Shown here one piece after another: positions 295 through 40,580 of a DNA stretch of 40,765 bases (position 1 is the stretch's first letter; each line of letters starts with the position of its first letter). Origin of the DNA: a virus; IMG/VR virus record IMGVR_UViG_3300044799_000427, positions 1 to 40,765 of that record. One strand, 5' to 3'. The notes below the pieces were generated by a model that did no database searches, was not told the DNA's origin, and worked only from the letters and a program-made list of their open reading frames with translations. The translations under genes were made by a program, and so were the position numbers.

Positions 295-1882
295 GTGCCC
301 CCAAGGGGGACAAACCTATAGGCAAATTATCCCCCTTCCTTGATGAAGGGGGATTTTCAAAAGGGGGCGAGGTGGATAGTGTTGGTGTAAAGTAAGTGAT
401 GCTCCCGACGAGCCGGTCGGGGGCTTCTTTTTTAATGACAATTTTATGGATGAGTGCCCGGAGGATTTGGCGGGTCTGATCGGCAGGAGCATTGGCTAGG
501 GTCTCGACCAAGTTCTTTGAGAGCATGGATATCTGATCAGACGTGAGCATTGGTATGGGTTCAAAATGCTGACGATCGAGTTCCATATATTCGGTATTGG
601 CCTGGGCGCGGCGGGCTTCCAGGTCAGTCAATTTTTCGAGCAGGGCTTGGGTGTGGCCACGCTCAGCGATGGCGCGGGTGATATTGGCGATCTGGGTGGA
701 GAGTTTGCGCCGTTCGTCCCGCAGTGTATCGAGCCGCTGCAGGCGGCGTTCTTCGTTTCGGCCGCTGGCGTTTTGTTGGATTTCGTAGATGGCGGCCAGG
801 CTGTCGGGGAGCAGGATGTAATCACGCAAAGTGGTCAAGACCGCTTCTTCGAGGGTTTTGCGGCCGATCCTTCCCTGGATGCAGCCTGCCCGGCGTTTGG
901 AGCGGGAGCAGCGGTAGGCTTCATTGCGGCCCCGATCATGGGTGACGGTATTGGCTGACATGGGCGATCCACACTCGCCGCAATAGACCAGGCCGCTGAG
1001 TATATAGGGACTATCGAAGCGGCGGGGATGGAGACGGTCATACTTGGCCCGGGCATGTTCCTGGATACGCTTCTGGACGGCGTTCCAGGTGGCCATGTCA
1101 ACGATCGGCTCGCAGTAGTTTTCAACGATGAGCCCGCCAAATTCCAGGATGCCGATGTAGAGGCGGTTAACGAAGAAAGTTTTATAGGAATTGATACTGC
1201 CAAAGAGGAGGAGTTCGGTGTGGATCTGCGCCAGGGTGGATCCACTGGCGCGCATCTCGAAAGCCTTCCGGACCCGTTCCTTGAGATCTGGATCATGAAC
1301 CCAGCGGTGGGCAATGCGGGGAGAGCCGTCACGCCGGGGTGGAAGGGTGACGGATTGACGGATGAAACCACGCGGCGGCACACCCGGCACGCAGCCATAA
1401 ACAGTTACCAGGTCCCGCAGGCCGCGCTTTGCATCCGTGGAGGTTTGTCGCCTTTTCTCCTCATTACTTATGTCGATGAAGAATTCAACGATGCGACCAT
1501 ATTGACCTTCCGGGATGGGGTCGGTGAGAGAATGGACGATAACGCCGCGGTTGCGCAGGAGAGCCTTGTAGTAGATGGCATCGTCGAGATCTCTTGCGAA
1601 GCGGGCATAATTCCAAAGCAAGATGCCCTGGGGGCGGTCTTCAGGGCGGCGGGTGAGATCCAGCATGCGGTTGAAATCGTCACGCCCTATAGTGGATCCG
1701 CCTGATTTGGCTGCATCATTGAATTTATGGCGGAGTTGGAGGCTGTGGTGTATGCAGTAGGCTTCGATTTCGGCAATCTGTTGATCAGTGGAGGCTTGCT
1801 GGCGCGGGCCGCCGCTGTCACGGACGTAGGCGTCCACGATGGAGCTAGGTGGGAGGGTGGAAGGAGGAGGGAGGTGGGACAT
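248..1882 (-). CDS. int: Large serine recombinase (phage integrase)
   Basis: A 544-residue site-specific recombinase that would integrate and excise the phage by a serine-phosphodiester mechanism. The N-terminal resolvase domain (about 15-160) carries the AYVRDS motif with S23 as likely nucleophile and a basic ARFARD stretch. A recombinase domain follows (about 165-290), then a zinc ribbon (YCGECGSPM with later CSRSKRRAGC, about 300-345), a coiled-coil region (about 375-440) and a C-terminal segment. The ATG directly abuts the TAA of the upstream lipoprotein gene, suggesting co-transcription from the repressor side and translational coupling. The frame runs through attL: residues 530-544 are encoded by bacterial DNA. 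In the circular phage the same frame would end PIYRQIFTHPIIFKKRP instead, giving 546 residues. Part of the 3' end overlaps a palindromic repeat (about 328..357). Confidence 0.95.
   Translation of the reverse strand: MSHLPPPSTLPPSSIVDAYVRDSGGPRQQASTDQQIAEIEAYCIHHSLQLRHKFNDAAKSGGSTIGRDDFNRMLDLTRRPEDRPQGILLWNYARFARDLDDAIYYKALLRNRGVIVHSLTDPIPEGQYGRIVEFFIDISNEEKRRQTSTDAKRGLRDLVTVYGCVPGVPPRGFIRQSVTLPPRRDGSPRIAHRWVHDPDLKERVRKAFEMRASGSTLAQIHTELLLFGSINSYKTFFVNRLYIGILEFGGLIVENYCEPIVDMATWNAVQKRIQEHARAKYDRLHPRRFDSPYILSGLVYCGECGSPMSANTVTHDRGRNEAYRCSRSKRRAGCIQGRIGRKTLEEAVLTTLRDYILLPDSLAAIYEIQQNASGRNEERRLQRLDTLRDERRKLSTQIANITRAIAERGHTQALLEKLTDLEARRAQANTEYMELDRQHFEPIPMLTSDQISMLSKNLVETLANAPADQTRQILRALIHKIVIKKEAPDRLVGSITYFTPTLSTSPPFENPPSSRKGDNLPIGLSPLGALLYSGVRRAITVEWT
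295..305. other. attL core (left prophage junction)
   Basis: GTGCCCCCAAG matches 40570..40580 exactly and the match stops on both sides. To its right (316..327) lies CTATAGGCAAAT, the inverse complement of the 12 bases at 40554..40565 just inside the right junction. Placing both phage flanks around one core gives a 49-bp imperfect palindrome centred on the core. Paired arms around a short crossover are the known layout of large serine integrase attP sites. The boundary is inferred from these repeats and was not measured. Confidence 0.88.
328..357. repeat. Palindromic element in the int 3' end
   Basis: ATCCCCCTTC and GAAGGGGGAT form a near-perfect hairpin, followed by a second G-run near 364..370. 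It lies in the last part of the integrase frame and resembles the other short palindromic insertions in this prophage. Confidence 0.6.
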
Positions 1883-2314
1883 TTATGGTGTGGCGCAGGA
1901 GATGGCTTCCTGGGCGCCGTCATCAAGTTGGCTGATATGCGCTTTGGTTTTGCTGCCTTCACCATAACCGGAATATAGAAAAGCAATTGCATTCGCAGAA
2001 AAAGTAAGGCCGGGATCATCTGGATCGCCGGAGATGGCCCATAATCCAATAACTTGGCCAGGTTCTATGCCAGGGCCTTTAATTTCGGCTGCAACGAACC
2101 AAACATTTTGATAATCCCCTGATTTGACAGCCCAAGCGGATCCAATATCGTTGGAAGAGGCGGTGGATTGCACGCCATCCCGGATATTTTTAGTCTGACG
2201 TATACTGGCGGTTTGGCAGCGAGGACTGGGGCTGATCGCTGAACTTCCGCAGGCAGTGATTGTCAAGATAATAATCACAAGAAGGAAAATATAGGGGAGG
2301 GATGGTTTTTTCAT
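1883..2314 (-). CDS. Predicted lipoprotein of the lysogeny operon
   Basis: A 143-residue protein with a classic lipoprotein signal: KK start, hydrophobic core (YIFLLVIIILTI) and lipobox ITAC-G with the cysteine at about residue 22. It would be exported, lipidated and kept on the outer face of the membrane. The mature part (WFVAAEIKGPGIEPGQVIGLWAIS) matches no family I can name. AGGGAG lies 6 bases before the ATG. It sits between repressor and integrase. Lipoproteins at this place in other temperate phages (Ltp of Streptococcus phage TP-J34) block superinfection, so exclusion of related phages is a reasonable inference, not shown here. Confidence 0.82.
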   Translation of the reverse strand: MKKPSLPYIFLLVIIILTITACGSSAISPSPRCQTASIRQTKNIRDGVQSTASSNDIGSAWAVKSGDYQNVWFVAAEIKGPGIEPGQVIGLWAISGDPDDPGLTFSANAIAFLYSGYGEGSKTKAHISQLDDGAQEAISCATP

Positions 2315-2324
2315 TTTGATCTCC

Positions 2325-2579
2325 CTAATGCGTAATCAAAGCGAATGCCAGCCCGCCTCCGATAGCAGTGGGCATAGATATGGGATGATGAGGCATGATG
2401 AGAAGCAGGGCGAAAATAGCAAACGCAGCATGGATAGCAAAGTCTTCCGGCGGATTCAAGCGGGGGATAACCAGCCAGTAGGCGTGGCAAAGCAGAACCT
2501 TGCGCTGCCAGGAATGAAGATGCGGCCAGGCACTAAGTAGTCTTTTCCATTGGCAGGGATCGGGCGGAGGGTTGTTCAT
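2325..2579 (-). CDS. Small hydrophobic protein (hypothetical)
   Basis: An 84-residue frame starting inside the 3' end of the repressor gene and ending 10 bases before the lipoprotein ATG. The second half holds a membrane-like segment (AIHAAFAIFALLLIM) and a glycine-rich hydrophobic tail (about 66-82). The tight fit between neighbours favours a real gene. The ribosome site is weak (a GAAGGGGA stretch lies too far upstream). It could be a small membrane partner of the lipoprotein. No family recognised. Confidence 0.5.
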   Translation of the reverse strand: MNNPPPDPCQWKRLLSAWPHLHSWQRKVLLCHAYWLVIPRLNPPEDFAIHAAFAIFALLLIMPHHPISMPTAIGGGLAFALITH

Positions 2580-2934
2580 TTTCGGTGATATATCTTTCCC
2601 CTTCTTCGCGTAGTGTATGACGGGCTTCTTCGGATAGGTGGGGCCAAATGCGTGTGAGAGTTTTTAGATCAGGATCAGGACGGGGCATCTCCAAAATGTC
2701 ATAAATTTCATCGCCAACTAATTCTATCAACTTGGGAAGAATGATCTCCGCGGTCCCTTTTGAAGGAAGTTTGTCGTTATCGAGCCATTGGCTAATAATG
2801 GGTCGACTAAATCCCAAATGGGAAGCGAACACATTAAGGGAGACGGATTCGCGATCAATTGTTTGGCGAGTACGCCATTCAATCAATGCTTTCTCAAGAG
2901 CGTAAGTAAATTGCTTTAAGTTCATATTAATCAT
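2533..2934 (-). CDS. HTH repressor (CI-like)
   Basis: A 133-residue protein with an N-terminal helix-turn-helix (SLNVFASHLGFSRPIISQWLDNDKLP, about 31-56), the XRE-type fold of phage repressors, and a helical acidic C-terminal part with no peptidase motif. It is divergent from the Cro-like gene at 3040, the standard lysogeny switch layout, and heads the leftward operon ending in int. Two ATG codons are possible (2934 and 2925, giving MINMNLKQ or MNLKQ). Neither has a clear Shine-Dalgarno, and the shorter form would be nearly leaderless if the promoter at 2935..2963 is used. The CI role is inferred from position. Confidence 0.82.
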   Translation of the reverse strand: MINMNLKQFTYALEKALIEWRTRQTIDRESVSLNVFASHLGFSRPIISQWLDNDKLPSKGTAEIILPKLIELVGDEIYDILEMPRPDPDLKTLTRIWPHLSEEARHTLREEGERYITENEQPSARSLPMEKTT

Positions 2935-2963
2935 TTTATATCATTATCTTCTAAGAATGTAAG
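2935..2963 (-). promoter_or_regulatory. Candidate leftward promoter of the repressor
   Basis: On the minus strand CTTACA (2958..2963) and TATAAA (2935..2940) are 17 bases apart. Transcription would start near 2928, so the repressor message would have almost no leader. The match is moderate. Confidence 0.4.
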
Positions 2964-2967
2964 GTAC

Positions 2968-2996
2968 TTGACAAACTGGTTGATTTGTTGTAATAT
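2968..2996 (+). promoter_or_regulatory. Early rightward promoter
   Basis: TTGACA (2968..2973) and TAATAT (2991..2996) with 17-base spacing, a near-consensus sigma-70 promoter. It would drive the Cro-like gene and the early region. The late promoter at 21224 has the same -35, the same spacing and the same 10 bases GTTGTAATAT. Confidence 0.8.
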
Positions 2997-3012
2997 GGTA
3001 ACAGATTTACCA
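2996..3012. promoter_or_regulatory. Operator-like dyad at the early promoter
   Basis: TGGTAA-CAGAT-TTACCA is a perfect dyad with 6-bp arms around 5 bases, starting on the last base of the -10 box, so a bound protein would block the promoter. ACTGGT (2975..2980) and ACCAGT (3009..3014) may be a second related half-site pair. Likely bound by the repressor or the Cro-like protein; inferred from position. Confidence 0.55.
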
Positions 3013-3039
3013 GTCAGCAATTACGGAACGGAATTAATA

Positions 3040-3363
3040 ATGATGACGATTGCCGAAATTACCCGAAAATACATGAGACAGTTCTTGCTTACCCAAGAGA
3101 AATTCACCGAGGCATTATGCGAGCATCTGGTGAACACAAACATCAGCCGTTCATCGGTTTCTTATTGGCTGAATGGGAAATATGAACCAGAGACAGATTT
3201 TCTTCTAATCTGCCTGGCGGTGCATAAAGATTGGCGCGCAGAGTGGGCAATAGAATGCCTGTGCGCGAAGCTGCCGGAGGTTTTCGACCGGAACCTCGAT
3301 GGGCGGATGATCGTTTTGAGCAATCGTATTGTGGTGCCTGTGAGTTCATCACATTCAGCATAG
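3040..3363 (+). CDS. Cro-like HTH protein
   Basis: A 107-residue protein. The start is put at ATG 3040 because the frame upstream runs through the promoter itself. GGAACGGA lies about 9 bases before it. Residues about 15-50 (LLTQEKFTEALCEHLV...SRSSVSYWLNGKYEPETDF) form a helix-turn-helix of the XRE type. It is the first gene of the rightward early operon, divergent from the repressor, so a Cro or early-regulator role is likely. The C-terminus (IVVPVSSSHSA) is unremarkable. Confidence 0.8.
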   Translation: MMTIAEITRKYMRQFLLTQEKFTEALCEHLVNTNISRSSVSYWLNGKYEPETDFLLICLAVHKDWRAEWAIECLCAKLPEVFDRNLDGRMIVLSNRIVVPVSSSHSA

Positions 3364-3404
3364 CACGAGATAGCGAATTTGTCTCAACTTCCCGAGGTAA
3401 AAGC

Positions 3405-3485
3405 ATGAAAAAATATCTCATTCTCCTGTCCTTCTGCGTTTTGGCTCTTTTAGGTTTACTAATATGGTCACTCTTAATACATTAA
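3405..3485 (+). CDS. 26-residue single-span membrane peptide
   Basis: Sequence MKKYLILLSFCVLALLGLLIWS plus LLIH: a lysine start and one long hydrophobic span. GAGG lies 7 bases before the ATG. Its end overlaps the next gene in another frame. It is one of a run of tiny membrane proteins in this early region; function unknown. Confidence 0.6.
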   Translation: MKKYLILLSFCVLALLGLLIWSLLIH

Positions 3486-3748
3486 TTCTGGTCATTGGAA
3501 TCCTATTTGCATTGGCGGCAGGGTTTGCCATCGCCAAGCTCCACTCCTGGATCAATACAACGCAGGCGCGATTAAATGAGCTCGAGCAGGCCAAGTCCAG
3601 GCGACTGCCATACAAGAGCGCGGACGCCATCGAGGATGCAACCGCGTCATTGATGTACCTGGAACAGCAAGAAGAGATTTTTAGTTTGTGGCTGGCCAAG
3701 GCGCACGAGTATCTAAAAACGGCCAGAAATCCGGATGGAATAAAGTGA
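3464..3748 (+). CDS. Small membrane protein with cytoplasmic helix
   Basis: A 94-residue protein. One membrane span lies at about 6-25 (LILVIGILFALAAGFAIAKL), followed by a charged helical segment (about 30-85) likely to form a coiled coil. It overlaps the 26-residue peptide before it. No family recognised. The layout (anchor plus soluble helix) is seen in phage membrane-associated early proteins. Confidence 0.7.
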   Translation: MVTLNTLILVIGILFALAAGFAIAKLHSWINTTQARLNELEQAKSRRLPYKSADAIEDATASLMYLEQQEEIFSLWLAKAHEYLKTARNPDGIK

Positions 3749-3762
3749 GGGAAGAGAAAACC

Positions 3763-3945
3763 ATGTGGATCGTCATTTTCGGTTTGACTTGTTTTTGGAT
3801 GGGTATTGCGGCGCTGACCGCCTGGGTATGCAGTTTCCCGGTCTGGCCGGTGGTGGTGGGGACAGGAATATTTGCCTTATTTACCGTCACAATAGCGTTT
3901 TCCCTGGCAAATGTAGCCAGAGAATCAACTGTGAAAGGAGAATAG
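3763..3945 (+). CDS. 60-residue membrane protein
   Basis: Two hydrophobic spans (about 2-22 and 25-47, separated by SFPVWP). The ATG at 3763 follows GAGGGAAGAGAAAACC. A longer in-frame start at 3688 would lie inside the previous gene and lacks support. Function unknown. It is followed after one base by another small membrane protein with the same MW start. Confidence 0.7.
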   Translation: MWIVIFGLTCFWMGIAALTAWVCSFPVWPVVVGTGIFALFTVTIAFSLANVARESTVKGE

Positions 3946-3946
3946 C

Positions 3947-4075
3947 ATGTGGACCAGCATTTTCATATTGACATTGTTCTGGATCGGGGCGGTAGGGATG
4001 ATCGCCGGATTAGTTTTGGGAACCCTGGAAGTGGTTTTCTTTCTTGCCGGTATCGCAAACTCGATCGGACGGTGA
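3947..4075 (+). CDS. 42-residue membrane protein
   Basis: Begins MWTSIFILTLFWIGAVGMIAG and continues with a second hydrophobic span ending NSIGR. AAGGAG lies 8 bases before the ATG, a strong site. The start MW..IFxLTxFWxG resembles that of the preceding 60-residue protein (MWIVIFGLTCFWMG), which suggests local duplication. Confidence 0.68.
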   Translation: MWTSIFILTLFWIGAVGMIAGLVLGTLEVVFFLAGIANSIGR

Positions 4076-4121
4076 TCGTTAGCGGGAATTCGCCCGCAAA
4101 TATTTTCGAAAGGAGAACAAA

Positions 4122-4328
4122 ATGCCAAAACGAGTTATTTCGATAGATGGAGTGAACCTTACAAGTCTGCAAGGCATGGTCCATACTCTCGGACGATTAA
4201 TCGGAAGTGAAGTTTATATCCGAAAAGTGGTCGAGGTTGAGAGTACCGAGCCAGTCATAAAGGCCCTGGATGCTGTGCTGGAAGGTATGAAGCAGAATCA
4301 GTTAAAGGAACAGAAGAAAACGGCTTAA
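4122..4328 (+). CDS. Hypothetical 68-residue protein
   Basis: A soluble, mixed-charge protein (MPKRVISIDGVNLTSLQGMVHTL...) with a lysine-rich tail. AAGGAG lies 8 bases before the ATG. No family recognised. Confidence 0.72.
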   Translation: MPKRVISIDGVNLTSLQGMVHTLGRLIGSEVYIRKVVEVESTEPVIKALDAVLEGMKQNQLKEQKKTA

Positions 4329-4344
4329 CACACCGTTCATGCCC

Positions 4345-4367
4345 GGGGATGGTGAACAGCCATCCCC
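4345..4367. repeat. Intergenic hairpin
   Basis: GGGGATGG and CCATCCCC are 7 bases apart. No T-run follows, so it is more likely a palindromic element or an RNA-processing hairpin than a terminator. Confidence 0.5.
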
Positions 4368-4385
4368 AGGCAATAGGAGTCTCCC

Positions 4386-4460
4386 ATGCCATTCGACGAT
4401 TTGGTTCCTTATCCGGCCAGCTCAGCCAGCCTGTTCGCCAGTCATGCCTGGCAGGCATAG
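4386..4460 (+). CDS. 24-residue peptide (possible)
   Basis: ATG preceded by AGGAG at 7 bases, encoding MPFDDLVPYPASSASLFASH and ending AWQA. Too short for any family call. Support is the ribosome site and the tight fit with its neighbours. Confidence 0.4.
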   Translation: MPFDDLVPYPASSASLFASHAWQA

Positions 4461-4467
4461 GTAGTAT

Positions 4468-4551
4468 ATGCGTAAATTGAATTTCCTGGATTACTTCAAC
4501 ATCATCGTTTTCATCCTGGTCCTGTTAGCGATCAAGGCCCTGGGATTGTGA
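4468..4551 (+). CDS. 27-residue single-span membrane peptide
   Basis: MRKLNFLDYFNIIVFILVLL plus AIKALGL: basic start, then one membrane span. AGGTAG is a moderate ribosome site. The stop is 8 bases before the next ATG. Another tiny membrane protein of the early operon. Confidence 0.55.
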   Translation: MRKLNFLDYFNIIVFILVLLAIKALGL

Positions 4552-4559
4552 GGAATACG

Positions 4560-4769
4560 ATGGAATGGCTCACCGCATATCAACCTGGATATCAGAAGAT
4601 AGCTAACCCGGCGGGAAAACATTACCGCCCTTATTTGTACCGACGAGGGGCGAGGCATTATTCGAGAATAAGTTTCCGGACAGCCGCCAAAGCACAAGTT
4701 TACGCTGAGCGCTGGTCGGATCGATTAACCCGGTTATTTCCGGGGAAGGAGAGCGGCATTGTTAACTGA
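4560..4769 (+). CDS. Small basic protein before the tyrosine recombinase
   Basis: 69 residues, strongly basic and aromatic (YRPYLYRRGARHYSRISFRTAAKAQVYAERWSDR). ATG 4560 follows GAGG at 6 bases; a GTG at 4548 is an alternative start. It overlaps the recombinase start by 11 bases, so the two are probably translated together. A nucleic-acid-binding accessory factor is possible from charge and position only. Confidence 0.65.
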   Translation: MEWLTAYQPGYQKIANPAGKHYRPYLYRRGARHYSRISFRTAAKAQVYAERWSDRLTRLFPGKESGIVN

Positions 4770-5718
4770 TCTGAAAGTTGCTCCTATTTTGACCACGTGG
4801 TTGGATGCTTTCGAAGCCTGGCTGCGGCTGGACGGTCGCAAGGGCAGCATGAAGCCTTTGCGCGAGAAGAGCATCGAGGCTATGTTGCAGGACATTCTTC
4901 ATTTTTCTCGATTTCTCGATCAATACGAGCCGAGTGCACAGGCATGCTCTCCCACACTCCAGGCGGTCAAGGCCTATTTCGAATGGCAGGCATCGTCCTG
5001 CGCACCGGCCAGCGTCAATCGACGCCTGGCCAGCCTGCGTACGTTGATGCGCTGGTCGCTTTCAGTAGGTCTGGTAGAGCAGGATCCCACGGCGCGTATC
5101 CCGCGTATTGAGATGTCGAAACTGCCGCCTCGGGCGAAGGACGAGCAGGAATGCCGGTCCTTGGCAAAGGCGGTCAAGGCCGGGAAACACCTGAAATGCG
5201 GCACGGAGCATTACCGGATCCTGGGTTTGCGTGACCGGGTTATCTGGTCGCTGTTTTACGACGCTGGTCTGCGCCGGGCCGAAGTGGCCGGTCTCCAGGT
5301 ACATGATTTATACCTGGGTGACCATCCTTATCTGCAATTCACCGGCAAAGGTGGCAAAGTCAGACAGGTGGCGATCAAGCACTCCATCTCGAAATTAATG
5401 GCTGCCTGGCTGAAGGCACGTCCAGGTTCGGAAGACGGTGCTCTGATCACCAACTGGAATGGGCAGGCGATCAGTCCCTGCCAGGTCTGGCGGCGGTTCG
5501 AGTTGATCTGCGCCGCGTCCGGAGTGGCAGCCACTCCACATGACCTACGCCATACGTTCGTCTACCGGACGGTCGAGGAGGCCATGAGCCGAGGAGCCAC
5601 CCGTGCAGCTGCGGTGGGAATTGCCTGCAGCCAGGCTGGTCATAGCGACAGCCGCATCACTGAGATGTATCTGCGGCCCACTTCTGATTTCATCTACCAG
5701 GTTGTGGAGGGGATGTGA
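4759..5718 (+). CDS. Tyrosine recombinase (XerC/XerD-like)
   Basis: A 319-residue tyrosine recombinase. An N-terminal SAM-like core-binding domain (about 10-115) is followed by the catalytic domain with R172 (GLRRAEV), a lysine in GKGGK (197-200), H261 and R264 (HDLRHTF), H295 (GHSDSRIT) and nucleophile Y304 (EMYL). All catalytic residues are present. The start is a TTG with AAGGAG 8 bases upstream. It lies in the early operon, far from both attachment sites, and the phage already has a serine integrase. Resolution of multimers, inversion or transposon-like recombination are alternatives to an integration role. Confidence 0.92.
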   Translation: MLTDLKVAPILTTWLDAFEAWLRLDGRKGSMKPLREKSIEAMLQDILHFSRFLDQYEPSAQACSPTLQAVKAYFEWQASSCAPASVNRRLASLRTLMRWSLSVGLVEQDPTARIPRIEMSKLPPRAKDEQECRSLAKAVKAGKHLKCGTEHYRILGLRDRVIWSLFYDAGLRRAEVAGLQVHDLYLGDHPYLQFTGKGGKVRQVAIKHSISKLMAAWLKARPGSEDGALITNWNGQAISPCQVWRRFELICAASGVAATPHDLRHTFVYRTVEEAMSRGATRAAAVGIACSQAGHSDSRITEMYLRPTSDFIYQVVEGM

Positions 5719-5719
5719 A

Positions 5720-5851
5720 ATGATCCACAAAATACTGAATTTGCTCGAACGAGATTGCCCAATGTGCGATGGCGGTAAATTGTTTGAAACAGGCGGAGTA
5801 TTCCTCCCCTGCGATTGCTGCAGAGACGGAAGAGTAGATCTGTTTCACTGA
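5720..5851 (+). CDS. 43-residue zinc-binding protein
   Basis: Cysteines in CPMCDGG (14-17) and PCDCCRDGRV (31-34) make a likely zinc knuckle, like the CxxCxG repeats of DnaJ. GGAGG precedes the ATG, which starts 2 bases after the recombinase stop. Function unknown; nucleic-acid or protein contact is plausible. Confidence 0.68.
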   Translation: MIHKILNLLERDCPMCDGGKLFETGGVFLPCDCCRDGRVDLFH

Positions 5852-5904
5852 CATGGTTTTTTCTGTTCAATATTAATCTTGTTTATTAAAGGAATAATGA
5901 TGAG

Positions 5905-6795: not shown

Positions 6796-6799
6796 TGAG

Positions 6800-7660: not shown

Positions 7661-7669
7661 TAGGAAAAA

Positions 7670-11266: not shown

Positions 11267-11700
11267 TTAAATTGATAAAAACGATGAACCTATGTACCAA
11301 ATGTACCCGATTCCGGGGTGGCGGGAAAAAATATGTTATGCACGGGAAAATGGGCTTTTACATCGCATATTTAATTAAAACAACAGGAAAAGGGGTACAT
11401 CGGGTTCATCGGTACATTAATTTTATCAAAAAAGCAATAAATATTGATAATAAATATCAATTATCTTATAAATATGATGTACCTATGTACCCCGATGAAC
11501 ATACAGGGGCGTATGGGTTTTTTATGCCCCGGCTAAAAGAAAGGGTTTTTGGGATGAGAAATAATGGTCAAAAAGAGGCGATTTTGGATGGTCAAACTAC
11601 ATCGAGGTACACAGGTTCATCGGCCCCACCCCAGCCCCTCCCAGAAGAGCACCGGGACGGTATCCCCAGATCAAAACCGATTTGGAGAGGGGAGAAATAG
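11263..11700 (+). CDS. Doubtful ORF over the iteron region
   Basis: A 145-residue frame whose ATG overlaps the primase stop and follows GGGAGAA, so it could be translated. Its composition changes along its length: a Cys/Gly start (CTKCTRFRGGG), an AT-rich middle made of iterons, and a tail that is a family C palindromic repeat. I think most of it is a cis-acting region that happens to be open. Confidence 0.25.
   Translation: MIKLIKTMNLCTKCTRFRGGGKKYVMHGKMGFYIAYLIKTTGKGVHRVHRYINFIKKAINIDNKYQLSYKYDVPMYPDEHTGAYGFFMPRLKERVFGMRNNGQKEAILDGQTTSRYTGSSAPPQPLPEEHRDGIPRSKPIWRGEK
11283..11621. other. Iteron cluster, candidate replication origin
   Basis: Four copies of a 16-17 bp element, consensus GATGAACCTATGTACC: direct at 11283..11298, inverted at 11394..11410, direct at 11476..11491 (one change) and inverted at 11606..11621. 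Extra TGTACC or GATGAAC units sit beside copies 1 to 3 (11302, 11411, 11494). Between copies 2 and 3 lies a very AT-rich run (about 11416..11475), suited to unwinding. Its place, just after the primase-helicase and before a ParB-like gene, fits an origin; binding sites for the ParB-like protein are the main alternative. Confidence 0.62.
11624..11695. repeat. Palindromic element (family C)
   Basis: CCCCACCCCAGCCCCTCCC at the left and GATTTGGAGAGGGGAG at the right, as in the elements at 29352 and 32369. Its right end lies just before the ribosome site of the ParB-like gene. Confidence 0.65.
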
Positions 11701-11708
11701 GAGAAATT

Positions 11709-12716
11709 ATGGAATTCCCAGGATGTAAAGTCAAGTCCGTGAATGATATTGCTGCCACCTCGATCATGGCACTCCCGGTCCACGTGCGCAAGCAGTCCAT
11801 CCGGATACAGTACCCGGATGAGATCCCGGTTGACCAGGTATACGTCAACCCAGAGCAGCCGCGCCACCTGTTCGATGAGCAGGAAATGGCGGAACTAACC
11901 GAGTCCGTCCGTCTCCATGGCGTGCTGATCCCCATCCTGGTGGAGCGTAACACAACCGGCGGCTACATCCTGCACGACGGCGAGCGCCGCTGGCGCGCCG
12001 CCAGGATGGCCGGGCTTGCCGCCATCCCGGCCCGCATCCTGCCGTCCGGCGCGGACAGCCTCAAACTGATCGACGCCCTGGTGGCCAACCTGCACAGCGC
12101 CTCCATGACCATCGTCGAGGAAGCCCTGGCATATCGGCGGCTTGGCGAGGTCTATGGATATGGTATGGAGCGCGGCTCCGCCAGGAAGATTTCCCGTCTG
12201 CTTGGGCTTTCCCGCATCCGGATCTATAATGCCCTGATCGTGCTCAAACTCCCCCCGGCAATCCAAGCGCACTTCGCCGCCCGTAAACTCCCCAACAATC
12301 CCGACGTCATACGGGCCCTGCTGCATATCCCGGACGACGAAGCCCGACTGCGGCTGGCCAATCACCTGGCAGCTTTCCCACATCCGCCCACCATCCAGAC
12401 CGTGCGAAGTGCCTGCACCCGCTTGAAAAATTTACTTGCAGCATCTGCAGAAGCAGATCGTTTTCAGGAGAAAATATCCACAGAAAGACGGGTCACTTCC
12501 GCCATGCGTTTCTCTGGTAAAAAGCCGCGCGCCGAATGGCCGGAATGGGAGGCCCTCTACCAGCTCGGCAAAGTTCCACCCTGGCCGGTGGTCAACGATG
12601 CCGTCATGGCCACCTGCGACGGCTGCGCCATGCGCCCGGCGGCCAGCAAGGCCATCTGCCGGGATTGCCCGCTGGTGGATTGCCTGCGCAGGATGATCAA
12701 GGCGGTGGAGAAATGA
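11709..12716 (+). CDS. ParB-like DNA-binding protein
   Basis: 335 residues. ATG 11709 follows AGGAG at 5 bases. An N-terminal ParB domain (about 35-125) carries NPEQPRHLF, HGVLIPILV and the GERRWRAARMAG box. A helix-turn-helix segment follows (about 150-180, ARKISRLLGLSRIRIYNAL). The C-terminus has a cysteine cluster (CDGCAMRPAASKAICRDCPL, then C), a probable zinc site. ParB proteins bind clustered DNA sites and hydrolyse CTP. No ParA is encoded in this window, so a replication, silencing or regulatory role is as likely as partition. The stop overlaps the next ATG. Confidence 0.85.
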   Translation: MEFPGCKVKSVNDIAATSIMALPVHVRKQSIRIQYPDEIPVDQVYVNPEQPRHLFDEQEMAELTESVRLHGVLIPILVERNTTGGYILHDGERRWRAARMAGLAAIPARILPSGADSLKLIDALVANLHSASMTIVEEALAYRRLGEVYGYGMERGSARKISRLLGLSRIRIYNALIVLKLPPAIQAHFAARKLPNNPDVIRALLHIPDDEARLRLANHLAAFPHPPTIQTVRSACTRLKNLLAASAEADRFQEKISTERRVTSAMRFSGKKPRAEWPEWEALYQLGKVPPWPVVNDAVMATCDGCAMRPAASKAICRDCPLVDCLRRMIKAVEK

Positions 12717-13660
12717 CTGCCCCCAATCTCGATCTGCTCATCCAAATCGCCGTGACGGGCGCACAGATCGCCACCGGCCGGCATGCGACCGGAAACCTGC
12801 CGGAGGCATTGTTCGCTGGCACACAGGTCCAGGACAGGACTGCCAAACAACCCAACTGGACCGCCGCAGAGGAGAAATTTATCGTCGAGAACTATGTCAT
12901 CTTGTCCGACATGGAGATCGGCGCAATCCTGGGCCGCAGCGCCACCGCAATTCATGTCCACCGCGAGCGCGAGATGAACCTGCCGGGGCCTTCGAAAGCG
13001 CACGGCATTCTCACCATCAACCGCGCTGCCAAAATGCTCGGCCTGAACTCCTGCCATGCCCTGGCATACTGGTTCGACGCAGGATTGCTGCCTGGTTATA
13101 AACTTCCCGGCGGGAGCATGTGCCGTTTAATCCAGGTTGCCGATTTCATCCGCTGGGTCTGCACCCCGGCCAACTGGATCTATATAGATATCGACAAGAT
13201 CACTGATGTGAAACTGAAACGCATGGCTTTCAAACGCCGCGAGCGCTGGAATGATGACTGGTGGAGTACTGTCCAGGTGGCGCAATACCACGGCGTTTCC
13301 ACCCAGGATGTAAAACGTTACATCAAACTCGGCTACATCCAGGCCATCCAGCCTGAATACTCCATCGGCGGGCGGGAACTCAACCGGAACTGGAAACCCT
13401 GGCGCGTCCTGCGCTCTGAGGCCACACATCCAGGCCTGCACTTCTGGACCAGGGCTGAAATCCGCACCGGCCGGCGCATCTGGAGCGCAGCCGCCGACGC
13501 CTGGATCCTGAAAGCCCGCGATGAACTGGGACTGAAATTCACAACCATCGGCCGCACGATGAAACGCAGCGACGAACTGATCGGACTGCGATATTACGCG
13601 CTCAAAAAAATGAATAAGGAGCAGGAATATCCCGCCCCTACGGAGAGATATGGAAAATAA
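12713..13660 (+). CDS. Multi-HTH DNA-binding protein
   Basis: 315 residues, starting at the ATGA overlap with the ParB-like gene. A SANT/Myb-like segment (NWTAAEEKFIVENYVILSDM, about 43-80) is followed by two modules that resemble helix-turn-helix/MerR-type DNA-binding folds (about 95-145, LTINRAAKMLGL; about 180-215, STVQVAQYHGVSTQDVKRYI) and a third SANT-like tail (about 260-300). Probably a regulator or a protein that bridges DNA together with its ParB-like neighbour. The tail YPAPTERYGK looks like half of a family B palindromic element. Confidence 0.65.
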   Translation: MTAPNLDLLIQIAVTGAQIATGRHATGNLPEALFAGTQVQDRTAKQPNWTAAEEKFIVENYVILSDMEIGAILGRSATAIHVHREREMNLPGPSKAHGILTINRAAKMLGLNSCHALAYWFDAGLLPGYKLPGGSMCRLIQVADFIRWVCTPANWIYIDIDKITDVKLKRMAFKRRERWNDDWWSTVQVAQYHGVSTQDVKRYIKLGYIQAIQPEYSIGGRELNRNWKPWRVLRSEATHPGLHFWTRAEIRTGRRIWSAAADAWILKARDELGLKFTTIGRTMKRSDELIGLRYYALKKMNKEQEYPAPTERYGK

Positions 13661-33196: not shown

Positions 33197-33197
33197 A

Positions 33198-33250: not shown

Positions 33251-33266
33251 CAAAAGGAGTTAGAAA

Positions 33267-33720: not shown

Positions 33721-33729
33721 AGTATATAT

Positions 33730-34466: not shown

Positions 34467-36402
34467 TAGCACTGCCTTGAGCCAGGGCCTTGCCCTGGCC
34501 GAATCTTCATCCATGAAATCCATGGCGACCATTGGCCAAGGCATGATGAAGGCCGGGGCGGCCATGACCGTGGGTCTGACCCTGCCCCTGGTGGCTGCCG
34601 GACTAAAAATGGTTAATTTGGCCAGCAATATGGTCGAGAGCGTCAGCAAAGTCAATGTCGTCTTCGGGGAAAGCTCATTGATCATCAAGGACTGGTCAAA
34701 AACTGCAGCCAGCAGTCTGGGCATGAGCCAGCAGCAGGCCCTGGAGGCGGCAGGAACCTATGGCAACCTATTCCAGGCCATGGGTTTGACCAGAAATATG
34801 TCTGTAGATATGAGCAAGTCGGTGGTGCAACTGGCAGCCGACCTGGCCAGTTTCAACAATGCCAGCCCGGAGGAGACACTGCTGGCATTGCGTTCTGGCT
34901 TATCTGGAGAGATGGAGCCCTTGAAGAAGTATGGGGTGGCAATGAATGATGCCACCCTGAGCCAAATGGCCATGACGATGGGACTGGGAGATAATATGCT
35001 TGTCCTGTCCGAGGCTCAGAAGATGCAGGTGCGATATGCGGTCATCATGGATCAGACCAGCATGGCCCAGGGCGATTTCGCCAGGACCGCAGATGGGATG
35101 GCCAATTCAACCCGCATTTTGAAGGCTGAATTATCCGATGCCTCCGCCATGCTAGGAGAGCAGCTCCTGCCTATTGGGCTGAAGGTGGTGACCTGGGCCA
35201 AAGACCTTTTGACCAGGTTCGAGGCGCTGACCCCGGCCCAGCAAAAGACCATCGTGGTAATTGGCGGGATCGTGGCGGCTCTCGGTCCGATGTTGATTAT
35301 AGCGGGCAAAGCAGTTACAGTTTTTGGCGGCATTGCCGCAGCGCTCACGACACTAGAGATGGCCGCTGGAATAGCGGGTGCGGCGTTCGTAACGTTGGCG
35401 CTTTCGCTTCTCCCGATTATTGGATTATTTGCTGCGGCCGCTGCAGTTATTGCCATTCTTGCTACGCAGGAGGATACGAACGATAGAACATTGCGAAATC
35501 ACGTGAATACCATGGACAGAGTTTCAGATTCTTATAATGCAACTGCTTCAGCTACAATCCACATGGCAGGGGCATTTGACGCAGGAATGCGCTCGACCAA
35601 GGGGATGGAAGAGGCGCATGCAAGCCTTCTCCCACATTTAAAGTTAACCGAAGTGGAGTTGCAGGCTCTGGCTGACAAGGCCGAAGCACTGCGAAAACAG
35701 ATAATAGACGAGACCGCTTGGGAGGTGATGTACACCGGCGCGAAAAGCGCGGCTGAACAAACACAGGGAAGTTTTGACCTGTTAGGCAGCCTGGTACAGG
35801 GATTAAGCGCGGATGGGGCAGAAGTTTGGAAAGGATTCCTGGAGGCATCGGGGGCGATATCCGTACCTGCATTGACAGAATTTGCAAAAATACAAGATAC
35901 ATTTATTACTTTGCAGGACAAAATAAAAACATTAGGTGTCACGCTTGCTATTGAGTGGTTGGTACATCAATCGGGAGTGGGGATACCCGGTCAGGCAGAA
36001 AAGGGTTGGGCGGAACAGGGAGCGTATCTCAATAAAGTTTATGGATCTTTAGATTCTACTAGTGGCGTTTATACCATACCCGGTAGCGGGGTGTGGGAAT
36101 CAACCGACACTGGCGGACGAATGGTATACAAGAATAGCCGGGACGAATGGACAACCATTGCGCCTGGTTACGCCCTTGGCGGCTCCTTCATGGTCCCACC
36201 CGGTTTTCTGGATGATTCATTTCCGATGATGGTGCAGTCCGGGGAGGTTGTTTCGGTTACACCGGCCGGACAGACGGAGCAGGGAGGCAGCCAGGTGTCA
36301 GGGGATACGAATATTACAATCATAAATCCGACCCCGGCATCAGCTGAGGAAAATATCCGTGATGAGATGTTAATACTTTCGTTCCTAGGAAAGACGAAAT
36401 GA
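34423..36402 (+). CDS. Tape measure protein
   Basis: 659 residues, setting tail length. N-terminal helical part (LMSLLVKLGVDSTALSQGLA), conserved SLGMSQQQALEAAGTYGNLF and SPEETLLALRSGLSGEMEPL (about 90-170), then hydrophobic spans (about 280-355: IVVIGGIVAALGPMLIIAGK; GLFAAAAAVIAILAT), and a C-terminal ALGGSFMVPPGFLDDSFPMM ... GEVVSVTP. GAGGAG precedes the ATG. Bases after about 35450 are AT-richer than before, so the 3' third may be a recombinant segment. Confidence 0.92.
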   Translation: MPNTLMSLLVKLGVDSTALSQGLALAESSSMKSMATIGQGMMKAGAAMTVGLTLPLVAAGLKMVNLASNMVESVSKVNVVFGESSLIIKDWSKTAASSLGMSQQQALEAAGTYGNLFQAMGLTRNMSVDMSKSVVQLAADLASFNNASPEETLLALRSGLSGEMEPLKKYGVAMNDATLSQMAMTMGLGDNMLVLSEAQKMQVRYAVIMDQTSMAQGDFARTADGMANSTRILKAELSDASAMLGEQLLPIGLKVVTWAKDLLTRFEALTPAQQKTIVVIGGIVAALGPMLIIAGKAVTVFGGIAAALTTLEMAAGIAGAAFVTLALSLLPIIGLFAAAAAVIAILATQEDTNDRTLRNHVNTMDRVSDSYNATASATIHMAGAFDAGMRSTKGMEEAHASLLPHLKLTEVELQALADKAEALRKQIIDETAWEVMYTGAKSAAEQTQGSFDLLGSLVQGLSADGAEVWKGFLEASGAISVPALTEFAKIQDTFITLQDKIKTLGVTLAIEWLVHQSGVGIPGQAEKGWAEQGAYLNKVYGSLDSTSGVYTIPGSGVWESTDTGGRMVYKNSRDEWTTIAPGYALGGSFMVPPGFLDDSFPMMVQSGEVVSVTPAGQTEQGGSQVSGDTNITIINPTPASAEENIRDEMLILSFLGKTK

Positions 36403-36803
36403 ACTGGAGCTATAACAGCGTTCCGCTCACCGCTGCAGGTGATTACACAACAACTGAGATTTCAGGGTTTGCCATGCCGTCCATCCGCGGGGAGAATATC
36501 GTCATTCCCATGATGCCAGGGCGGATATATGTGGACAAATATTTTGACCAGCAAAAGATCGTGCTGGGGATCACTTTCTTCGGGACGGATCCTACCGACC
36601 TGGAAACAAACATCGCTACCCTGGTGGCGATCTTCAATAAGCTTACCCAGGCTTCACTGGAATGCACTTACCCTGATTCCGGCTCCGTGTCCGGGCAGGC
36701 GGAAGTATCCGACTTTCAAGGACCGGTTTACCATGGATCCACCATGGCCAAGGCTACGGTCACGTTTCTGGTGACAGATCCACCCCTGGAGGCTCCGTCC
36801 TAA
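36399..36803 (+). CDS. Distal tail protein (Dit-like)
   Basis: 134 residues. NSVPLTAAGDYTTTEISGFA, VIPMMPGRIYVDKYFDQQKI and a late VYHGSTMAKATVTFLVTDPP make a beta-sandwich typical of distal tail proteins, with a phage-tail-hub role. The stop and the next ATG touch. Confidence 0.72.
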   Translation: MNWSYNSVPLTAAGDYTTTEISGFAMPSIRGENIVIPMMPGRIYVDKYFDQQKIVLGITFFGTDPTDLETNIATLVAIFNKLTQASLECTYPDSGSVSGQAEVSDFQGPVYHGSTMAKATVTFLVTDPPLEAPS

Positions 36804-37969
36804 TGCCTGATGATGATGGTGCTGTCTGGACACTGTATGGCCGGGATTTTGCCACCAATCTCGGCGTTCTAAACGTAATTTATCGGGAAATTCATCCGAT
36901 ATTGAATGAGCCCGGAGCCGGGAAAGTAACCATCCTTGAAAGCGATGCCCTGGCATCTGTGGTAGATGCTGGACTGTGGGTCGCCTTTGATTACCGCGGT
37001 TCGAACCGGCTCGGTTTTATTGTTGAGCACCTGGAATATGTGGATGTTGATGAAAAGGAGGGTGCCGGGCAAATCCTGGCCATTTCCGGACGCGGACCAT
37101 TGGCGCTGCTAAACCGGGCAGTGGTATGGGATTACATGACTCCCGGATTTGAGAATATCCGCAGATTCGGGACGAAAGATGTTACAACAGGTTATGGCGG
37201 CGCGCCGGTTGCAAAAGGATTGATGTTGTATCACCTCCTCCAGGAGGCGCGAGAAACGAACAATCCCCTAGACCCGGCTACAAATCGCTATTGTTGGCGC
37301 GTAGGAGGTATCTCAACCGGTGACTTTTATCTAGATTGGGATTTTACCGACACTCTGGATAGTAATGGCGATCCGTGGTTGGACGCCGAGGATATTGAGA
37401 TAGCGGTAAATACACCGCTTCTGGACGTTGTTCGCCAGTTCGCCGCCCTGGGGTTGGATTTCGGGATGGATTGGGATGGAGCCGGTCTGTTCACCCTGCA
37501 TTGCTACCGAGAGAGAATTGTTGATGATGTCTCGGATGTGGTGGATTTCGCGGTGGGAACGAATGTACTAAAGGCGACGAGGACAACTGACGGCACAGAT
37601 ATGAGCAATGCCATCCTTCTGGCAGTCTCCAATCTGGCACTGCCTTATTACAACGTGACCGACCCTGTCTCTATCGGTATCTATGACCGGTATGAGAGTG
37701 GAATGCAAGCTGCAAATGCCTATACTCTGGCTAGTACCCTTTCACTCGGCACAGCAGAACTGGCGGTAACGGCCAACCCATCCAAGGCGTTGGATTTACA
37801 GGTCGCGGATGCAAAAGCACCAATGGCGTACGTTGATTATAATCTCGGATCTACCGTGATGTATTCGCCCGGTGGAACTCCCCTGTTCCCACGCATAGAT
37901 GGGATGCACCTGACCTGGATCGGTGAAGAGAAATATGCCCGGATCAAGCTCGAAACGGATTTGCCATGA
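36803..37969 (+). CDS. Tail hub protein (ReqiPepy6 Gp37-like)
   Basis: 388 residues. VWTLYGRDFATNLGVLNVIY, VEHLEYVDVDEKEGAGQILA, SGRGPLALLNRAVVWDYMTP and later DVVRQFAALGLDFGMDWDGA fit the siphovirus Gp37-like family at the tail tip. It overlaps the next ATG. Tail-tip attachment platform is the likely role. Confidence 0.78.
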   Translation: MPDDDGAVWTLYGRDFATNLGVLNVIYREIHPILNEPGAGKVTILESDALASVVDAGLWVAFDYRGSNRLGFIVEHLEYVDVDEKEGAGQILAISGRGPLALLNRAVVWDYMTPGFENIRRFGTKDVTTGYGGAPVAKGLMLYHLLQEARETNNPLDPATNRYCWRVGGISTGDFYLDWDFTDTLDSNGDPWLDAEDIEIAVNTPLLDVVRQFAALGLDFGMDWDGAGLFTLHCYRERIVDDVSDVVDFAVGTNVLKATRTTDGTDMSNAILLAVSNLALPYYNVTDPVSIGIYDRYESGMQAANAYTLASTLSLGTAELAVTANPSKALDLQVADAKAPMAYVDYNLGSTVMYSPGGTPLFPRIDGMHLTWIGEEKYARIKLETDLP

Positions 37970-39825
37970 GACCGCGAGATTTTAGAATTGCCAACATGAC
38001 AGATGTAGCAAAATACACCGGCGGGGGACATGCCGGAAGTCCGCTGATGAACCCGCCGCACACGAACGGGTTGGCAACGGCTATGACTTTGGGGTCGGAG
38101 GTGGTGATAAAAAAGGTAGATGAATCCGTTTGTAATTCTCAAGTTGTTCAAAATGACGACGAATTGTTTTTTCAAGGTTTAGCAAACGCCGTTTACAAAA
38201 TAGTAATTCACACGGTCATAGTTGAGGATCCGCCTTCGGGTGGATTTCAAGGTACAGTATATGGCGGGTCTTGGTCAAGTATTCATCAAATTATTCTGGG
38301 CGGGAGTTGGACTGCGATTGACCCGCTCATATATGAAATATATGGTACTCTTATAATGGGTGGTGCAGACGATGTAATTCATTTTAAGTGGGCACAATCT
38401 AGTCCTACTGCCGATTGTACAACACTGAAGGCGGGTTCATATCTGACATATTCGCGAAGTGATTTGAGTGGTTCTGGGGTTACAAACGGTGATGCTCACG
38501 ACCATTATGGCGGCGATGGGGGGCAAATTGCTTACAGTCATCTCTCCGGTTTGCCTACCTTAGGGACAATTGCAGACAACAATGAGGGCGATTTTGCCGT
38601 TGCATCGAAAGGTGTCACCAATGGCGATTCACATGACCACAACGGCGGTGATGGCTCACAAATTGCTTATGGGACACTTTCGGGTACTCCAACCATTCGT
38701 GAAGTCCTTTTCGCCAACCGTACTTATTATGTCCGTACGGATGGAAATGACGCCAACACTGGCTTGATCGATACTGCCGGAGGTGCTTTTCTTACCATCC
38801 AGCATGCTGTTAATGTTGTCGCCGCCCTTGATCTTTCAATTTATAACGTGGTCATTCAACTTGCAGATGGTACTTATTTTCATGGTTGTTTGGCAAGTGG
38901 TCCCTTTGTTGGCTCCGGCATTTTAACCATCCAGGGAAATAATGTCACACCTTCAAATGTATTAGTTTCCACTACAAGTGAAAATGCTTTTTGTTCCAAT
39001 TTCTCTGCCTTGATCGTCCATGATTTGAAGATAGAAACAACAACCAGTGGGTATGCCATCATTGCCACCAATAATGGAGCCATTAATTTTCAGGGTGTGG
39101 ACTTTGGCGCATGTTCCCAATCTCATATTCGTGCTGAAAATGGCGGTATTGTTACACCTACGGGAAATTATGTCATTACCGGAGGAGCGATACATCACTT
39201 TGATGCTTTTGGAATCATTAGATTTTCGACCGCCGCAACTGTTACTTTAATTGGTACTCCTTATTTTTCCTACGGTTTTGCATTTGTTCAATTATCTGGC
39301 TTTTTGGTTTCATGGGGAGTTACTTATACTGGTTCAGCAACAGGTTATCGATTTATTGTTCAAAAGAATGGGGCAATAGTTACCAATGCCGGTGGCCCTT
39401 CTTATTTTCCTGGAGATACAGCAGGTATTATTTCTACCGGTGGTCTCTATGATTCTATCCCTGCATATTTACTTGAAGTCTATCCAATCGGCGCCGTTTA
39501 CATTTCCGTACTTTCCACCAGTCCGGTTACTTTGTTTGGTGGTACCTGGGCATATCTCGGTCCTGGCCGGGTTCTGGTTAGTCTTGATGCCGGTGATGCC
39601 GATTTTGATACTGTCGAAGAAACAGGTGGAGCAAAGACGGTCACAGTTGCTCAACATGCTGCAAAGAATAGTGATGCGGCCGGAGTGGGTGCAACTGCTT
39701 ATGGTACAACTGCTTCCACTGTCACTCTCAAGGCTCATGTTCACAATATCACCGCTTATACTCATGCAGCGGCCAGCATCGTTCAGCCTTATCTCGTAGT
39801 CTATATGTGGAAAAGGACGGCTTGA
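37966..39825 (+). CDS. Tail fibre / receptor-binding protein
   Basis: 619 residues. N-terminal part (1-165) likely attaches to the tail. Two repeats follow: GVTNGDAHDHYGGDGGQIAY (171-190) and GVTNGDSHDHNGGDGSQIAY (216-235), each with an HxH pair that could hold metal in a trimer axis. A right-handed beta-helix follows (about 250-490, start YYVRTDGNDANTGLIDTAGG). The C-terminal tip (about 500-619: YPIGAVYISVLSTSPVTLFG ... GRVLVSL) is a collar/tip domain with another AHVHN. Host recognition is the likely role. Codons are clearly AT-richer than in the head genes. Confidence 0.85.
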   Translation: MRPRDFRIANMTDVAKYTGGGHAGSPLMNPPHTNGLATAMTLGSEVVIKKVDESVCNSQVVQNDDELFFQGLANAVYKIVIHTVIVEDPPSGGFQGTVYGGSWSSIHQIILGGSWTAIDPLIYEIYGTLIMGGADDVIHFKWAQSSPTADCTTLKAGSYLTYSRSDLSGSGVTNGDAHDHYGGDGGQIAYSHLSGLPTLGTIADNNEGDFAVASKGVTNGDSHDHNGGDGSQIAYGTLSGTPTIREVLFANRTYYVRTDGNDANTGLIDTAGGAFLTIQHAVNVVAALDLSIYNVVIQLADGTYFHGCLASGPFVGSGILTIQGNNVTPSNVLVSTTSENAFCSNFSALIVHDLKIETTTSGYAIIATNNGAINFQGVDFGACSQSHIRAENGGIVTPTGNYVITGGAIHHFDAFGIIRFSTAATVTLIGTPYFSYGFAFVQLSGFLVSWGVTYTGSATGYRFIVQKNGAIVTNAGGPSYFPGDTAGIISTGGLYDSIPAYLLEVYPIGAVYISVLSTSPVTLFGGTWAYLGPGRVLVSLDAGDADFDTVEETGGAKTVTVAQHAAKNSDAAGVGATAYGTTASTVTLKAHVHNITAYTHAAASIVQPYLVVYMWKRTA

Positions 39826-39826
39826 T

Positions 39827-40489
39827 ATGGACATTTTAGGTATTGGTGATGCCTCCGAGTACGATACTTTCTCTTCGACCGATTGGCAGAAGGCCGCAGA
39901 CATGGGTTGCAAGTTCGGTCTCGTGCGCGCCACTACTACTACCTTTGACTATAAACTTAATAAACCTTTTTCCCGGGAAGATATTCGTCATCTTGCCAAT
40001 TCCCAGGCCATGACTTTTGTCGGTATTGATCGTTGGTCTTATTGCTGGTTCGATCCCCGTCCTGCCATCACTGCCTGGGAACAGGCTGATTTCTTTATTT
40101 CCGCGGTCAACCATGCCGGTGGACCTGGAAATCAAGATTTTCGAGTTGCTCTTGATATTGAACCTTCTGATTCCATCAATTATGATCCAGCCGGTCTGGT
40201 CCGTGCCCGTGCATGGTTAGATATTGTTTCGCAGGCCGGCTTGAAACCTTCCATTTATACCTATCCTTCCTTTCTTGAAAAATGGAATAAGCCTGATATT
40301 GCCTGGATGAAAAAATATGAATTGATCATTGCTCATTGGTCCATTAACGTTCCTCGCTGTCCTTATCCTTGGTATCCGGGTGGTTTTCTCGCCTGGCAGT
40401 ACACAGCCAGCATTAATGGTGACCTTTACGGTTTCCATTCCTCCGTCCCGGGCAAAACCGCCCCCCGCATCTGCTTGGCAGTGATGTGA
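39827..40489 (+). CDS. GH25-type endolysin
   Basis: 220 residues. MDILGIGDASEYDTFSSTDW with D8, ALDIEPSD (D110, E112), SIYTYPSFLEKW and LIIAHWSINVP ... GGFLAWQYTA are the usual landmarks of the GH25 (Chalaropsis-type) lysozyme fold, which cleaves MurNAc-GlcNAc bonds. No signal peptide and no cell-wall-binding domain are visible. Last gene of the late operon. Confidence 0.87.
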   Translation: MDILGIGDASEYDTFSSTDWQKAADMGCKFGLVRATTTTFDYKLNKPFSREDIRHLANSQAMTFVGIDRWSYCWFDPRPAITAWEQADFFISAVNHAGGPGNQDFRVALDIEPSDSINYDPAGLVRARAWLDIVSQAGLKPSIYTYPSFLEKWNKPDIAWMKKYELIIAHWSINVPRCPYPWYPGGFLAWQYTASINGDLYGFHSSVPGKTAPRICLAVM

Positions 40490-40503
40490 TCCTACCGTAG
40501 ATC

Positions 40504-40531
40504 AAAAAACGACCTGTCAGGGTCGTTTTTT
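40504..40531. terminator. Bidirectional terminator at the prophage right end
   Basis: AAAAAACGACC and GGTCGTTTTTT are perfect 11-bp arms around TGTCAG, with an A-run on one side and T-run on the other, so it works in both directions. It ends the late operon. In the circular phage the integrase frame would run into it and stop at 40517..40519. Confidence 0.9.
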
Positions 40532-40569
40532 GAAGATTATGGGATGGGTAAAGATTTGCCTATAGATAG

Positions 40570-40580
40570 GTGCCCCCAAG
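40570..40580. other. attR core (right prophage junction)
   Basis: GTGCCCCCAAG, identical to 295..305. On the tRNA strand it is the last 10 bases of the tRNA-Glu gene plus one, so integration leaves the tRNA gene whole. Inside it (40554..40565) lies ATTTGCCTATAG, the inverse partner of 316..327. Confidence 0.88.

Follow-up and report, generated by a model that had tools for sequence, protein, structure and literature searches.

A prophage at a tRNA-Glu gene whose large serine integrase appears to exchange its C-terminal tail on integration

Which recombinase places a phage at the 3' end of a host tRNA gene, and what becomes of the integrase when its own reading frame runs across the attachment (att) site? 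These questions are raised by the IMG/VR virus record IMGVR_UViG_3300044799_000427, a stretch of 40,765 nucleotides that was analysed at its full length and is referred to here as the window. Host DNA makes up about 295 bp and about 185 bp at its two ends. The best explanation, which we consider probable, is that the window holds a whole prophage of 40,275 bp, put at the 3' end of a host tRNA-Glu gene by a large serine integrase that swaps its C-terminal tail in the same step. Coordinates of all features are collected in Table 1.

The core GTGCCCCCAAG is present in only two copies in the window, and the phage together with a single copy measures 40,275 bp. By itself an 11-bp repeat says little, as 824 pairs of direct repeats of this length are present in the window. 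The arms on the phage side of the cores, ATTTGCCTATAG and CTATAGGCAAAT, constitute a perfect 12-bp inverted pair that is separated by about 40 kb in the prophage, and fusing the right end, which extends to 40580, with the left end, which starts at 306, yields a 49-bp palindrome (27 + 22). Arms of at least 12 bp were absent from 3000 first-order Markov shuffles of both 40-bp flanks (longest 11) and from 3000 random pairs of 40-mers drawn from the window (longest 10); a chance origin of the arms was rejected on the basis of these controls. The wider proposal that repeat and palindrome are products of chance or of assembly and that the real ends lie elsewhere can draw on the frequency of 11-bp repeats in 40 kb of DNA. 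It is extremely improbable given that this core is unique, that the arms are unequalled in 6000 controls and that the joined ends are colinear with unbroken attP sites of relatives past both arms, which refutes it in practice. An earlier reading of the same DNA, the original prediction, had named these exact ends and the 40,275-bp phage, had noted 12-bp arms that lie far apart in the prophage and become symmetric about the core once joined, and had regarded them as strong internal evidence. The unique core, the exact reverse complementarity of the arms, the absence of such arms from the controls and the unbroken sites in relatives all agree with it. The rebuilt palindrome stands as well, while its placement in the tRNA-Glu gene does not: attB resides in the tRNA gene, of which attP has no more than the last 11 bp.

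In IMG/VR, the two integrases closest to that of the window share 64% and 63% identity with it. On both of their contigs an unbroken site with the same arms and core directly follows the integrase gene (int), and the DNA beyond both arms matches the joined window ends. Profile and pattern searches revealed an unbroken attP in 21 related phage contigs, three of which are circular by end overlap (G001, G012 and G013), with the circle of G013 closing exactly at attP. Since the relatives are non-independent samples, permutation counts given below are guides only. The arm sequences vary between phages (TTGCCTATA, TTTGTCTAT, ACTGTGTCT, GATGTGCCTAC) with retention of symmetry, and the symmetry axis falls on the same single base in all 20 aligned attPs, resulting in a palindrome of odd length. 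Serine recombinases cut at a 2-bp centre; compared with this, one half-site seems to be 1 bp longer. Two further phages are found in occupied sites. G009 (L014/L025) has attR at a tRNA-Glu(TTC) gene on one end and attL followed by a terminator on the other, and in G021 (L064/L071) attR lies at a tRNA-Glu(CTC) gene, with a terminator and the beginning of a phosphofructokinase gene behind attL. When rejoined, the ends of each give a palindromic attP, in G021 with perfect 11-bp arms (TTGCCTATGTA / TACATAGGCAA). Sites with attR only are present at tRNA-Glu(CTC) genes in L065 and L066. No recognisable attP was found at the int genes of L013, L042 and L043; the first of these is a short, repetitive contig that encodes a 47% identical integrase (3001-4713), and no attP can be recognised in the 3' end of this gene. 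Matches to the attP pattern in L086 and L090 were discarded as chance, as neither has an int frame at the match. The best matches in INPHARED and PLSDB are integrases of less than 30% identity, and a scan of genome contigs returned only a match in Yoonia (25%).

The 49 bp of attP lie within the 3' coding end of int, between the conserved body of the gene and a terminator. In the prophage, the int frame meets no stop within the phage; it crosses attL and stops only after 47 bp of host DNA. Once the phage ends are joined, this frame crosses attP and stops at 40517, inside the terminator hairpin. The C-terminus of the window integrase thereby changes from ...GAPIYRQIFTHPIIFKKRP in the phage form to the host-encoded ...GALLYSGVRRAITVEWT in the prophage. 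The corresponding change in G009 is from ...GAHLHRRSISFEFQIAPQHITQKSRSQ to ...GAQSKDMLFSMSFYFIPASPLRG, and in the G021 prophage (L071, about 1880-2040) the frame stays open through the host terminator into the start of the host phosphofructokinase gene. An int frame that spans attP and a C-terminus that changes on integration are shared with the Mx8 type. This course of the frame through attP, and with it the alteration of the enzyme by integration, had been overlooked in the original prediction.

Is the exchanged segment a genuine part of the protein? Of 24 complete attPs, 23 have the core in the same frame of int, despite a variable length of the linker that precedes it. Counted from the core, 15 codons of the tail frame are free of stops in 27 of 27 sites, compared with 17 and 2 sites for the other two frames. 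Among the tail codons past the right arm, 24 synonymous and 40 non-synonymous changes were counted in 13 non-overlapping pairs; column permutation of the alignment gave a mean of 10 synonymous changes and reached 24 in none of 2000 trials. Third-position changes are likewise enriched in the tail (1 of 2000 permutations). Because the frame is open throughout and synonymous changes are in excess, the tail is, as judged from its codons, a translated and selected part of the protein. L008 is the sole exception. Here the zero frame stops at ...PPPF just before attP and the tail is kept in the -1 frame (LNLPIALTPVGAPRYRQTFAHPIKP). Reversed frameshift roles, a recent indel or an assembly error may each account for the arrangement in this region (L008, 4486-4562).

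Transcription of the tRNA gene and int proceeds in the same direction, and recombination therefore swaps what follows each of them. On integration, the tRNA gene gains the phage tail fragment with its terminator and int gains whatever lay behind the tRNA gene. A terminator-like hairpin is situated at most about 70 nt after attP in 13 of 20 relatives, compared with 5% of shuffles; these figures stem from a looser script with shuffle control, as a generic scan missed hairpins with AT extensions. In G009 and G021, a host terminator is now clearly present after int. This exchange of terminators provides a plain reason for the position of attP between int body and terminator in a phage that targets tRNA 3' ends.

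It is conceivable that the overlap is passive, i.e. that attP lies before the terminator as integration into a tRNA gene needs one on the phage side, and that the swapped tail is without effect on activity. Terminators directly after attP would explain its position without any role for the tail, the tail varies widely in length and sequence, and lysogen tails are arbitrary host sequence. We nevertheless regard passive overlap as unlikely in view of the synonymous excess in the tail (24 versus 10, 0 of 2000), the constant frame of the core across attPs and the retention of the tail in another frame in L008. Most likely, the tail swap ties integrase activity to the state of the phage: a full-tail enzyme would serve integration and an altered one would be present in the lysogen. 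After infection, the full-tail integrase would recombine attP with attB. The tRNA keeps its full sequence, and int trades its own C-terminal tail for a host-encoded one. The lysogen would then contain an enzyme with a foreign tail, such that excision would begin from the altered enzyme until the circle re-forms, and excision would restore the original tail. Some observations weigh against this proposal. A shuffle-controlled scan detected no clear host terminator behind int in the window, the window and G009 rows of the tail test use flanks joined in a script, and a model of the prophage form of the window integrase also gives the host-encoded tail as a short strand, with a predicted local distance difference test score (pLDDT) of about 65. 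For comparison, the AlphaFold2 model of the L003 integrase in its unbroken form, the best matches of which are cryo-EM serine integrase complexes including those of Bxb1 and phiC31, places the tail in a strand (543-548; block pLDDT about 83) flanked by two disordered stretches. The predicted structural contrast between the two tails is modest and only suggestive. Directional control is a central question for serine integrases, which rank among the leading tools for genome writing, and in this family the tail of the enzyme is swapped by integration itself. The family offers some 24 natural att sites for testing.

The domains PF00239, PF07508 and PF13408 of the serine integrase score above their cut-offs, long helices are present at 361-439, the fold matches integrases of the SPbeta type, Bxb1, phiC31 and A118, and an 11-bp core and a 49-bp palindromic attP adjoin the gene, all as in large serine integrases. 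The phage also encodes an XerC-like tyrosine recombinase (4759-5718), and it might be argued that this enzyme carries out integration into the tRNA gene and that the serine recombinase has another job: tRNA genes are usually targeted by tyrosine integrases (PMC4383910), and tyrosine recombinase genes are found in 18 of 21 related records. These proteins are similar yet heterogeneous, with 22-44% identity to that of the window. Across 16 phages, attP-arm similarity correlates with similarity of the C-terminal part of the serine integrase (r = 0.61; none of 2000 Mantel permutations as high) and hardly with that of the tyrosine proteins (r = 0.15); after the serine integrase has been accounted for, a partial r of 0.004 remains. 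Furthermore, attP is always located at the serine int gene, and the spacing of the arms, about 13-24 bp from the axis, is that of serine attPs (PMC4068962). The XerC-like protein is thus a very improbable owner of the site and was rejected as such by the co-variation test; the arrangement sought by Islander, a tyrosine integrase owning a tRNA att site, is absent here. Going by sequence co-variation, the att site is that of the serine integrase.

The tRNA-Glu(CTC) gene is kept intact on integration. The occupied sites comprise five in tRNA-Glu and one in tRNA-Asp genes. A second core class (TCGGGRCCGCC) matches tRNA 3' ends that are mostly those of tRNA-Asp and, as predicted for this class, L153 contains a tRNA-Asp gene followed by an arm and an int tail of the second class (attR only). 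This contig was retrieved with a looser search pattern, after a stricter one gave no match. In both tRNA-Glu and tRNA-Asp, the palindrome axis coincides with the first base of the 3' acceptor strand (position 66 in our numbering from the sequence). A crossover where T-stem and acceptor stem meet (tRNA position 65-67) would swap everything downstream, and the crossover dinucleotide is predicted to lie there. That a serine integrase uses the 3' end of a tRNA gene, as put forward in the original prediction, is thus corroborated by the relatives, by two more prophages in tRNA-Glu genes and by the co-variation of arms and serine integrase. Its remark that such use is less usual for serine than for tyrosine integrases agrees with the literature found: the Islander study of 2014 states that serine integrases were not known to target tRNA genes (PMC4383910), and in M. 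abscessus the attB sites listed as overlapping tRNA or tmRNA genes belong to tyrosine integrases (PMC10654092). Tools that seek only tyrosine integrases at tRNA genes will miss such prophages.

A second peculiarity of int is found just before attP, where the codons read CCC CCT TTT GA(A/C/T) in all eight related genes. Among 144 conserved degenerate columns, CCC CCT TTT is the sole stretch in which three consecutive codons are invariant. The sequence CCCTTTTGA is present in the window (357-367, minus strand), in L003, L004, L009, L010, L037, L038 and L039, and additionally in L082 and L083; in L082 it is retained though the encoded peptide has changed from PPF to YPF. In eight of eight genes a stem begins 4-7 nt downstream of the heptamer. 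Its partner is the attP core in six of them and is local in the window and in L009. The predicted slip would lead to an immediate TGA and to a protein ending in ...PPF, and the natural end of L008 is located there. Heptamer of the form X XXY YYZ, spacer, stem, -1 stop and conservation at the nucleotide level are all features of the dnaX type, and a frameshift that ends translation early corresponds to the dnaX arrangement (PMC5009743). A -1 frameshift before attP would also yield a short tail-less integrase, and we consider the case for it evenly balanced. To the same degree, CCCTTTTGA may be invariant as a DNA element or by virtue of a conserved PPF peptide. It lies 40-60 bp from attP, the next GCCCCCAC is an inverted copy of the core that could act at the DNA level, the bases could serve DNA binding, and the heptamer is not found in the accessible part of the frameshifting review (PMC5009743). 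Against a DNA element or conserved peptide speak the exact X XXY YYZ phase with its immediate -1 TGA, the stem at 4-7 nt with different partners, the changed peptide in L082 and the natural ...PPPF end of L008. Should frameshifting occur, a two-layer switch can be imagined, in which it determines how much of the enzyme is tail-less, whatever the state, and integration replaces the remaining tails, helping to fix the direction of recombination. This combination is rather doubtful and is put forward tentatively.

How do these findings compare with known systems? An att site inside int as such is already known from Mx8, from SSV-type integrases and from streptococcal rumA integrative and conjugative elements (ICEs). 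In Mx8, according to the accounts of Magrini et al. (1999) in PMC6070905 and PMC4701971, attP resides in the int coding sequence and the new 3' end of int alters activity. The likeness extends to the acquisition of a new 3' end on integration and its reversal by excision (PMC6070905). Mx8 has a tyrosine integrase and ours is a serine integrase, such that the two are similar by design and not by descent. Furthermore, Mx8 loses 112 residues for 13 (PMC4701971), whereas here some 15-25 residues are swapped and the catalytic and DNA-binding domains stay whole; of the two, a change in activity has been demonstrated for Mx8 only. The streptococcal rumA ICEs, as far as they are described in the accessible part of PMC4701971, share a serine integrase, an att site inside its own gene and an excised element that encodes a different C-terminus. 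By this description, which contains no analysis of tail or terminators, they differ in being conjugative elements in the protein gene rumA and not a phage in a tRNA gene. Archaeal suicidal (SSV-type) integrases likewise have the recombination site within the integrase gene (PMC8371274). Those are tyrosine enzymes that are split into inactive halves, whereas here only the tail is swapped and catalytic and DNA-binding domains remain in one frame in the prophages. The domain set, the fold, the short core and the palindromic attP are shared with the integrases of phiC31, Bxb1, A118 and SPbeta. The palindrome itself is ordinary, because serine attPs are typically palindromes of 42-69 bp (PMC4068962). 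Unlike here, attP of SV1 lies outside the gene, as is usual for classical serine integrases (PMC4068962), and tRNA genes are not among the known targets of the latter (PMC4383910). As far as the open-access PMC literature was searched, a phage family of serine integrases at tRNA-Glu and tRNA-Asp genes is new, and so are selection on the exchanged tail, the exchange of terminators and the candidate frameshift.

Table 1. Features of the window, with coordinates, strand and basis of assignment
Coordinates	Strand	Feature	Basis
1..294	+	Host DNA, formerly downstream of tRNA-Glu	Inferred from attL
248..1882	-	Serine integrase, prophage form, 544 amino acids; runs through attL and ends in host DNA	Pfam Resolvase, Recombinase, Zn_ribbon_recom; PHROG 95 integrase; open reading frame
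295..305	+	attL core GTGCCCCCAAG, left host/phage junction	Sequence; sole other copy at 40570-40580
306..1882	-	Phage-encoded part of int, as far as the core	Translation
316..327	+	attP arm CTATAGGCAAAT of the inverted pair, on the phage side of attL	Exact reverse complement of 40554-40565; also in relatives with unbroken attP
329..354	-	Stem-loop ATCCCCCTTC-ATCAAG-GAAGGGGGAT; starts 4 nt (C-run 6 nt) past the heptamer	Sequence
357..367	-	CCCCCTTTTGA, candidate -1 slippery heptamer (C CCT TTT, 359-365), -1 frame then TGA	Invariant in 8 of 8 related genes
4759..5718	+	Phage XerC-like tyrosine recombinase, ruled out as att owner	PF00589; TIGR02224 below cut-off; no co-variation with attP
40502..40533	-	Terminator-like hairpin AAAAAACGACC..GGTCGTTTTTT; terminates int in the free phage and follows tRNA-Glu in the prophage	13-bp perfect inverted repeat
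40517..40569	-	Orphaned int 3' end (PIYRQIFTHPIIFKKRP + stop), in frame with 306-1882 when joined	Joined-end translation; conserved in 27 sites, excess of synonymous change
40554..40565	+	attP arm ATTTGCCTATAG of the inverted pair, on the phage side of attR	Sequence
40569..40643	-	Host tRNA-Glu(CTC), target (attB), kept intact on integration	ARAGORN; Rfam RF00005, 59.7 bits
40570..40580	+	attR core GTGCCCCCAAG, final 11 bp of the tRNA-Glu region	Sequence
40666..40764	-	Host gene fragment, end of LUD-domain (LutC-like) protein	PF02589, E 7e-9

Apart from the recombinase genes, the window contains a gene for a ParB-like partition protein (11682-12716; PHROG 4715) in the replication region. Next to it, 12536-13660 shows a weak match to an excisionase/regulator family.

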